Source: Candidatus Woesearchaeota archaeon
Lineage (GTDB): Archaea > Nanobdellota > Nanobdellia > Woesearchaeales > GW2011-AR4
Direction: 5' to 3'
DNA length: 34,939 bases
NCBI GenBank assembly: GCA_016180235.1
Contig: JACPBQ010000004.1
Location: 1 to 34,939 of the forward strand
Part shown: positions 31,125-33,226 of the stretch, in pieces
Position numbering within the stretch: the first letter of the stretch is position 1
Layout: each line of letters starts with the position of its first letter
Position numbers and translations under genes: made by a program
Notes under the pieces: model-generated
Seen by the model: only the letters and a program-made list of their open reading frames with translations
The model's database searches: none
Told to the model about the DNA's origin: nothing

Positions 31125-31445
31125 TTATTTTTCCAGATTAATGAACTGGCTATATATATACTCAACAGCCTTTTTGCTGTTTTTTGATGCTCTGCTTTCT
31201 ATTTCAGAGGCTTTTTTTTTCGCCTCCTGCACCTTCTTTTTTTTATTTTCTTCGAGGCTTTTTTTCAGATTCTCAAGTTTTTCCCTGTTTATTTGCTCCA
31301 AATAAGCTTCCTTCTTGCCAATAAGCTCTTTTGCAGATGCTTCCGCATCTTTTAGCATCTTTTCTGCCTTTTTCCTTGCATTTTCCGCTTTTGCATCTAT
31401 CTCCTTCTCAGCCTCAAGAATCTCCTTCAAAATTGCGCTGCTCAT
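31125..31445 (-). CDS. atpH: A-type ATP synthase subunit H (peripheral stalk)
   Basis: A 106-residue, nearly all-helical Ala/Lys/Glu-rich protein (ILKEILEAEKEIDAKAENAR, then KKAEKMLKDAEASAKELIGKK). It is the coiled-coil partner of subunit E and is first in the operon as in other archaea. I place the start at the ATG at 31445: the in-frame extension upstream reads through the promoter region and is not protein-like. A TATA box at 31499-31510 lies upstream. Confidence 0.85.
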   Translation of the reverse strand: MSSAILKEILEAEKEIDAKAENARKKAEKMLKDAEASAKELIGKKEAYLEQINREKLENLKKSLEENKKKKVQEAKKKASEIESRASKNSKKAVEYIYSQFINLEK

Positions 31446-31592: not shown

Positions 31593-31701
31593 GCGCCGGT
31601 AGCTCAGCTTGGAGAAGCCTGCGAGCATTCGCTACGCTTCGTGCAAATAGAGCGAAGGGTTCCTAACCCTTAGGCCCGGGGTTCGAATCCTCGCCGGCGC
31701 G
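31593..31701 (+). tRNA. tRNA-Arg (anticodon CCT) with a 36-nt insertion in the D-loop
   Basis: Acceptor GCGCCGG (31593-31599) pairs perfectly with CCGGCGC (31694-31700), with discriminator G31701. Anticodon stem AAGGG/CCCTT encloses loop TTCCTAA, so the anticodon is CCT (31662-31664). The T-arm is CGGGG/CCTCG with TTCGAAT. The D-stem GCTC (31602-31605) only finds its partner GAGC at 31650-31653, because 36 nt are inserted after the conserved GG at 31611-31612. Without the insertion the molecule is a normal 73-nt tRNA. No CCA is encoded. It lies 4 bp from the stop of the convergent gatE. It is either an intron-containing gene or a disrupted one. Confidence 0.85.
31613..31648 (+). other. D-loop insertion (candidate noncanonical tRNA intron)
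   Basis: The inserted 36 nt can be placed at four offsets because AGA occurs at both ends (31613-31615 and 31649-31651). It folds by itself: GAAGC (31614-31618) pairs with GCTTC (31636-31640), enclosing GCGA/TCGC with a GCAT loop. A strict bulge-helix-bulge splice motif is not evident; only a TTG/CAA mini-helix (31609-31611 with 31644-31646) and a 3-by-3 internal loop next to the D-stem are seen. Confidence 0.6.
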
Positions 31702-31705
31702 TTTT

Positions 31706-33226
31706 TTATTTTACGTACTTCTTCAGCAATTCCATAATCCTGCTGCCATCAATCTTGCCGCGGTATTTTGACATGAGGATGCCCATATAGGCACCTAAAG
31801 AAAGGTCTTTCTTTTTTTCTATAAGCTCTTTGATTTCCTTTTCAATGTCTTTTTCTGAAACAGAAGCAAACTTGGCAAAATCAATCTTCTCGTCATTTAT
31901 TTTTTTGACCAGCAAGTCTATCACAGCTTCTTTTGCAATCTTCCCCTTGTTCAGGTAATCCAATATTTCCTCGAAATGCTCGTCTTTTAATTTGGAAGTG
32001 TCCAGCTTAAACCTTGTTTTGATTTCTTTCGGGACATTGATGAGAATATGGGCCACTAGCGAAGACTCCAATTTATTGAATTTTTTGGCTAAATCCTCAA
32101 AATTCTCCTTTTCTATCAGCTCTTTTGCCAGTTCATTGCTTATCCTGTGCCTTTTCTCCAATTCTTCTGCCTTATGCTTCAGCAGTTTTGGCAGGTTTTT
32201 TCTCAGATCATTAACATACCCTTTTTCTATTTTTACCGGTGCCACGTCTGTCTCCGGGTATAATCTTGCTGCTCCCGGCAAAGGCCTGAGGAAGGAGGTT
32301 GTAAAATCCGGCTCTGCTTTCCTTACCTCTTTTTCAAGCTCACTCGAAAAAGCTTTGCTTTTTCGGTGTCCCGAAAAGCTTTGCTTTTCGAGGATTTTTC
32401 CTTTTTTTATTTCATTTAATTGACGCTCAATCTCATAATTTATAACTTTTGGAATGCTTCTTAAATCCTGGAAGCCTTTTATTTCTGTCCTTGCCCCATT
32501 TTTTATTGAAACGTTGACATCCTGCCTTATCGTGCCCAAGCCGCGCCTGACTCCATCGACGCTTCTTAATATCATCCCAATGATAGAGGCTGTTTCCTTT
32601 GCGTGCTCCGGATTTTTTATTTCAGTACCTGTAGCGATTTCTATTAAAGGAATTCCTAACCTGTCGAGCCTGTATCTTACAAAGCCTCCAGAGGAGGTAC
32701 CCGATTCTGTCCGAGCATCTTTTTCACTTTCAAGCTTTTGGGCTGCTTCTTCTTCAAGGCAGATTATAGGAATATTTACTTTTCCCAAAGAAGTTTCAAT
32801 AAATCCGTCCATTGCAACTAAAGCTGTCCTTTGGAATCCGGATACATTGCTGCCGTCAACAACATTTTTCCTCATCACCCGGATCTCATCAACTATTTTT
32901 GCATTCAATAATAAAGCTATTTTCAATGTGGATTCCAGTGCCTTCCTGTTCAGCTCATGCGGAGGCTCTTCGTCATATTCGACCAGGCAGGTATCCTGTG
33001 AGTCGGCCTCGTAAATGAACTTCCTGCGTTTCTGCATCTCATGGGCTGCTGCTATGTCTATCTCTCCTGTTTCCCCGGCAACCGCCCTTAGCCTTCTTTC
33101 AAACTTGACATCAGGCTCTTTATCGGAGTTAATAGTCGTGCAGCTGCAGAATAATTTTTTGCCTTCCAATTGCTGGTGAATTTCGAGACCACACTTGAAT
33201 CCTAATTCATTATAGTTCAGTTCCAT
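31706..33226 (-). CDS. gatE: Glu-tRNA(Gln) amidotransferase subunit E, short form
   Basis: A 506-residue kinase/tRNA-binding subunit of the archaeal enzyme that converts Glu-tRNA(Gln) to Gln-tRNA(Gln). N-terminal KCGLEIHQQLEGKKLFCSC and GLGTIRQDVNVSI mark the GatB/E cradle domain. RPLPGAARLYPETDVAP (residues 314-330) is GatE-specific, and the C-terminal YqeY-like helical domain is present. Usual GatE is about 620 residues because an AspRS-like domain is inserted before the RPLPGAARMYPETD motif; here only about 40 residues occupy that place, and residues 279-295 are encoded by a 50-bp palindrome. It follows gatD and the MJ1316-domain gene on the same strand. Confidence 0.93.
   Translation of the reverse strand: MELNYNELGFKCGLEIHQQLEGKKLFCSCTTINSDKEPDVKFERRLRAVAGETGEIDIAAAHEMQKRRKFIYEADSQDTCLVEYDEEPPHELNRKALESTLKIALLLNAKIVDEIRVMRKNVVDGSNVSGFQRTALVAMDGFIETSLGKVNIPIICLEEEAAQKLESEKDARTESGTSSGGFVRYRLDRLGIPLIEIATGTEIKNPEHAKETASIIGMILRSVDGVRRGLGTIRQDVNVSIKNGARTEIKGFQDLRSIPKVINYEIERQLNEIKKGKILEKQSFSGHRKSKAFSSELEKEVRKAEPDFTTSFLRPLPGAARLYPETDVAPVKIEKGYVNDLRKNLPKLLKHKAEELEKRHRISNELAKELIEKENFEDLAKKFNKLESSLVAHILINVPKEIKTRFKLDTSKLKDEHFEEILDYLNKGKIAKEAVIDLLVKKINDEKIDFAKFASVSEKDIEKEIKELIEKKKDLSLGAYMGILMSKYRGKIDGSRIMELLKKYVK
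32343..32392. repeat. Double-hairpin repeat inside gatE, copy 3
   Basis: Two perfect hairpins: CGAAAAAGC/GCTTTTTCG with a TTT loop (32345-32353 and 32357-32365) and CGAAAAGC/GCTTTTCG with a TTT loop (32372-32379 and 32383-32390). They are linked by a GGTGTCC centre (TTTTCGG/CCGAAAA also pair), and the outermost CTCGAAAA and TTTTCGAG pair too. The length keeps the gatE frame open. It encodes residues 279-295, KQSFSGHRKSKAFSSE and neighbours. Confidence 0.85.

Follow-up and report, generated by a model that had tools for sequence, protein, structure and literature searches.

Non-canonical introns are an established kind of archaeal tRNA intron, and the positions listed for them include 20/21, with Crenarchaeota and Nanoarchaeota being called rich in such elements (PMC4090602). 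Relaxed splice motifs (hBH, HBh' and BHL) are cut by heteromeric or epsilon-2 EndA (PMC6379350, PMC12397907), and published work ties relaxed motifs to endonucleases that are loop-bearing or heteromeric. Transposition of tRNA introns has been described in Thermoproteales (Fujishima 2010, as cited in PMC4090602 and PMC4033280). For the tRNA introns of Woesearchaeota, a search of an open-access library yielded no description.

The gene considered here lies in a stretch of 34,939 nucleotides, referred to as the window, from a Woesearchaeota genome of 1.04 Mb that is 80.75% complete, where this stretch opens contig 9. It is a tRNA-Arg(CCU) gene with perfect acceptor, anticodon (CCT) and T arms, an intact D-stem (GCTC:GAGC) and an expanded D-loop, and a preliminary description had placed it, correctly to the nucleotide, at 31593-31701 on the forward strand. 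The insert in the D-loop is real, but the 36 nt and the 73-nt product first given for it become 34 nt and 75 nt, because the insert-free site in orthologues reads TTGG-AT-AGAGC. In its unspliced form the gene gives no match to Rfam at the gathering score or in the default mode of ARAGORN; it reaches 28.0 bits against the Rfam tRNA model (cut-off 29), by way of a false D-arm inside the insert. The tRNA-Cys(gca) called on the unspliced gene by the intron mode of ARAGORN is a miscall, and once the insert is taken out the program calls tRNA-Arg(cct). Most of the sequences upstream of orthologous or related genes contain a TTTAAA-like element at about -30, its spacing being kept in most relatives. 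The features of the locus are collected in Table 1.

Table 1. Features of the interrupted tRNA-Arg(CCU) gene and its surroundings in the window; intron and exon limits are those of the favoured reading.
Feature	Position	Strand	Basis or remark
Small A-type ATPase subunit (H/E-like) gene, other flank	31125..31445	-	ORF adjoining ATPase genes
TATA-like promoter element TTTTTAAAAA	31561..31570	+	Starts 32 nt upstream, ~30 nt before mature 5' end
tRNA-Arg(CCU) gene, intron included	31593..31701	+	109 nt; 75 nt spliced, including discriminator
5' exon, G1 to A20	31593..31613 (to 31614 in alternative)	+	Spliced alignment to intron-less orthologue L023
Exon strand UUG of 3-bp central exon-intron helix	31609..31611	+	Pair probabilities 0.75-0.86
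Predicted 34-nt class II D-loop intron	31614..31647	+	Presence/absence at site in orthologues; class II geometry
Intron hairpin GAAGC (31614-31618):GCTTC (31636-31640), enclosing GCGA (31621-31624) and TCGC (31629-31632)	31614..31640	+	MFE structure
GUG, intron side of GA/RNG internal loop	31641..31643	+	Sequence; class II rule
CAA, intron strand of central helix	31644..31646	+	MFE structure, pair probabilities, class II table
AUA, 3' splice-site loop before D-stem strand GAGC (31650-31653)	31647..31649	+	17/17 class II introns
3' exon, anticodon CCT at 31662-31664	31648..31701	+	Spliced alignment; ARAGORN on spliced gene
T-run directly 3' of tRNA gene	31702..31707	+	Sequence; probable terminator
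gatE, syntenic neighbour establishing orthology	31706..33226	-	GatE homologue adjoins tRNA gene in 19/28 loci tested

A search of the family covered 36 genomes, 30 of which contain a match for the tRNA-Arg(CCU) gene. The best orthologue shares 89% identity across all 109 nt (E 1e-35), and a chance origin is excluded because orthologues exist in the family. The same-genus relative G026 has the same D-loop match, and there too the small A-type ATPase subunit gene adjoins the tRNA gene. Spliced alignment to the intron-less copy L023, which served as reference for the family, places inserts of 16 to ~110 nt in the D-loop of L012-L020, L022, L024-L028, L030 and L034, and none in L023, L029, L031-L033, L035, L037 and L039. 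Inserts at this one site are unrelated in sequence between near relatives. Insert-free orthologues with the D-arm AGCTTGGATAGAGC occur within the family beside gatE, several of them from one neighbouring genus, and GatE flanks loci both with and without an insert.

The same tRNA-Arg(CCU) gene carries other introns as well. These include a T-stem intron of ~31 nt (L015-L017, L024, L025, L032-L034, L037, L039), introns at 37/38 (L018, L039) and T-loop introns (L028, L030, L031, L035), and they occur in several combinations among relatives. In one genus, a T-stem intron of ~31 nt and related sequence is common to the tRNA-Arg(CCU) and tRNA-Arg(UCU) (L084) genes. A separate peculiarity was seen in L021 (1449-1660; G011:C62), where two tRNA-Arg(CCU) copies stand head to head with overlapping T-arms, one without and the other with a class II D-loop intron (defined below); this palindrome may reflect either a chimeric assembly or a duplication in inverted orientation.

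Pattern searches of the order, the phylum and the GTDB genome set, combined with the family orthologues, yielded 34 distinct inserts at the site, which sit in tRNA-Arg(CCU), tRNA-Arg(UCU), tRNA-Arg(UCG) and tRNA-Lys(CUU). They come from Woesearchaeota, Aenigmatarchaeota, Nanohaloarchaea and DHVE2, and the earlier statement that D-loop introns are known mainly from Thermoproteales needs qualifying in view of this range and of the listing of 20/21 in PMC4090602. The pattern matches L096, L101, L109 and L107 (Zoogloea, S32M) were discarded as normal bacterial tRNAs following a chance GCTCAG. Class I inserts mostly form a strict bulge-helix-bulge, in which the 5' bulge is mostly AYA, the exon YUGG pairs with CCAA or CCAG of the intron, the 3' bulge is ANA and the hairpin follows the 5' bulge immediately; L065 and L116 are textbook cases. 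The latter (1910-1990) is a tRNA-Arg(CCU) of the DHVE2 group with the pairing CUGG:CCAG. Class II comprises 17 of the 34 inserts, including that of the window. Here the exon UUG pairs with CAA over 3 bp, G19 lies opposite a G, (A/U)G(A/U) follows UUGG, the hairpin begins two nucleotides past UUG with a G:C pair, and RNG separates the hairpin from CAA, creating a GA/RNG internal loop. AUA precedes GAGC in all 17 class II introns, compared with a variable ANA in class I.

The strict motif, a 4-bp helix with two 3-nt bulges, is absent from the window gene, with its 3-bp helix, G-G mismatch and 2x3 loop, whereas the majority of class I inserts at this site have it. The remark that no clean bulge-helix-bulge is seen thus applies to this gene but not to the site, as orthologues even in the same family have a clean one. 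The window insert does qualify as a relaxed bulge-helix-bulge, since exon and intron form a helix next to the cut sites and the bulges are irregular; the minimum free energy structure of the unspliced gene has a z-score of -2.75. All three UUG:CAA pairs are kept in 16 of the 17 class II introns. A hairpin of at least 4 bp at the class II offset is present in 17/17 class II inserts (shuffle mean 0.29), and at the class I offset the same inserts form 0-2 bp. With L106, which fits either class poorly, counted as class I in these pairing statistics, 32 of the 34 inserts form at least three of the four central-helix pairs, whereas shuffled sequences do so in 10 cases on average and in 16 at most. 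The pairing count alone does not fix the register, because register +1 also gives at least three pairs in 28/34 inserts (A-rich ends); the register adopted here is based on the class I sequences together with the offset of the helix. L116 and L105 show double changes at the outermost central pair, where four other CUGG exons are unpaired.

The position of the insert is ambiguous within AGA...ATA, which allows 31614-31647, 31613-31646 or 31615-31648. The AGA repeat noticed earlier on both flanks is indeed present and is read here as the pair of splice-site bulges. The middle nucleotide, the U of AUA, is invariant in class II and variable in the class I 3' bulge. If U20a came from the 3' exon in class II and from the 5' exon in class I, both would yield the D-loop of the insert-free genes, which favours 31614-31647. 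Standard bulge-helix-bulge geometry would instead define an intron at 31615-31648, with the junction at 20a/21 and a G at 20a. The exact cut points are accordingly given as two predictions: 20/20a, at which the product equals that of intron-less relatives and the spliced junction would read TTGGATAGAGC, or 20a/21, at which it would read TTGGAGAGAGC.

The splicing machinery of the host was also considered, the type of tRNA splicing endonuclease having been proposed as a check. The catalytic subunit was found: EndA is a protein of 192 aa with both Pfam domains (PF01974, 98 bits), closest by sequence, among solved structures, to the catalytic subunit of Nanoarchaeum equitans (3iey). The ligase RtcB is likewise encoded (PF01139, 576 bits). 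The Crenarchaea-specific loop, an insertion present in the A. pernix and S. tokodaii proteins (3p1z/2cv8), is absent from host EndA. No beta subunit was recognised in the 36 genomes, in which only the alpha gene exceeds the PF01974 cut-off and the beta model NF007085 retrieves the alpha gene itself or weak unrelated matches. Of the weak PF01974 matches, those in G001 and G035 belong to MoxR-type ATPases, and the one in G025 is without EndA similarity. Either a very divergent beta subunit was missed or the host enzyme differs. In most family loci examined, a conserved protein of ~311 aa is encoded directly beside endA (L042:1834-2766); it matches nothing in the PDB and nothing significantly in Pfam, and is not claimed as an EndA subunit. 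Judging by the sequence, its N-terminal part may be a winged helix and its C-terminal domain nuclease-like.

Other tRNA genes of the host show irregularities of their own. The tRNA-Arg(UCU) gene (G000:C5:66696-66822, minus strand; L051/L147/L150), missed by the genome-wide Rfam search, has ~52 nt extra in the anticodon arm, which are probably two introns, and its predicted spliced D-arm, AGCTTGGATAGAGCGA, is intact. Many further tRNA genes are over-long (L004-L010, matches of 85-123 nt), apparently through anticodon-arm introns, although some of the longer ones may have long variable arms instead. Another interrupted tRNA-like gene, L149 (G000:C4:14702-14726), has the intact D-arm GCTCAGCCTGGTAGAGC.

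The insert is very probably a protein-spliced archaeal tRNA intron at a non-canonical D-loop site, 20/20a or 20a/21. Its removal restores a canonical tRNA, it is precisely absent from orthologues, and EndA and RtcB are both encoded, as is the case for archaeal tRNA introns. In the precursor, the D-stem would form normally and U17-U17a-G18 would pair with the CAA at the intron's 3' end. The remainder of the intron would fold into the hairpin, so that the 5' site would lie in a GA/GUG loop and the 3' site in an AUA loop. EndA would cut both loops, and RtcB would join the exons into a normal 75-nt tRNA for AGG codons. We infer that excision actually takes place and that EndA alone accepts the relaxed motif. 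Among the four options initially offered (a relaxed-motif intron, an element insertion repaired by splicing, a tolerated expanded D-arm or a dead tRNA), the evidence speaks strongly for the first, and the remaining three are disfavoured.

It is extremely unlikely that the insertion destroyed the tRNA and left AGG to be read by tRNA-Arg(UCU) alone. Standard finders do miss the gene, and the existing tRNA-Arg(UCU) could read AGG by wobble; however, in 15 interrupted genes all 315 of 315 exon-stem pair cells are standard, with compensatory double changes at five pairs, and the promoter element and synteny are kept. Moreover, AGG is the main arginine codon, accounting for 95 of the 150 in eight genes of the window, and tRNA-Arg(UCU) probably has anticodon-arm introns of its own. 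A second intact tRNA-Arg(CCU), proposed earlier as a sign of a pseudogene, was not found in the host genome, which at 81% completeness could be missing another copy. A tolerated hairpin, with the 34 nt retained after maturation, is consistent with an insert that prolongs the D-arm as a stable helix. This reading is nevertheless very improbable given the length range among near relatives, their unrelated insert sequences and the lack of any insert in some of them, and given the textbook splice motif of class I relatives at the same site. The same gene also has anticodon- and T-loop introns requiring removal.

A remnant of a mobile element or group I intron, sitting in the gene by chance, has hardly any likelihood. 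Group I introns are reported in archaea by a paper that mentions Woesearchaeota too (PMC6125680), and related class II inserts in both tRNA-Arg(CCU) and tRNA-Arg(UCU) mean that movement between genes may have occurred. Nevertheless, 34 nt is far below the size of a group I core, target duplication is limited to the bulge nucleotides, and the Rfam matches are only tRNA-like.

For the proposed intron, gain and loss appear frequent. On an EndA tree of 22 genomes with weak forks, the three insert states (none, class I, class II) need at least nine changes; 69 of 200 label shuffles gave a number as low, so the states cluster no more than shuffled labels do. A well supported sister pair differs, G010 having a class II insert and G020 none. 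Class II inserts are also located in the tRNA-Arg(UCU) genes L068 and L158, as well as in L153 and L154, whose anticodon arm resembles tRNA-Arg(UCU) with an intron of its own. These sequences suggest that class II introns moved between isoacceptor genes, as in Thermoproteales. Having no intron, class I, class II or several introns in close relatives, the tRNA-Arg(CCU) gene offers a natural series for the study of intron gain and loss. Since standard tools miss or misname such tRNAs, the tRNA repertoires of DPANN archaea look poorer than they are.

Compared with the non-canonical introns removed by EndA (Sugahara 2008, as reviewed in PMC4090602), the window insert is likewise short and interrupts its tRNA gene at a site other than 37/38, its sequence pairs with the exon alongside both cut sites, the host encodes EndA and RtcB, and one gene may contain several introns; the insert differs in a cut-site structure that is not a strict bulge-helix-bulge and in its host lineage, Woesearchaeota. 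As in the transposition reported for Thermoproteales (as cited in PMC4090602 and PMC4033280), similar introns occupy different tRNA genes and are gained and lost rapidly, but here this is seen, by pattern search, only between arginine isoacceptors. Unlike N. equitans (3iey), which has a beta subunit, none is recognisable in the 36 genomes; the nanoarchaeon Nst1, in which no beta gene was identified either, raises the same question (PMC3655853). Enzymes acting on hBH, HBh' and BHL motifs also differ, as a beta subunit and the Crenarchaea-specific loop were both sought here without success; the lack of a recognisable example calls into question whether relaxed tRNA introns depend on these features. 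It is a possible, though rather doubtful, extension that Woesearchaeota share class II with other DPANN archaea as a separate D-loop splice-site architecture, for which the cutting enzyme is an alpha-only EndA without beta subunit or specificity loop; if true, this would be a further route to relaxed substrate specificity. With the published relaxed motifs (PMC6379350, PMC12397907) the window insert shares a shortened central helix and irregular bulges. The new part is the class II architecture, whose geometry, unlike theirs, is constant: a 3-bp UUG:CAA helix, a GA/RNG loop, a hairpin closed by G:C and AUA.
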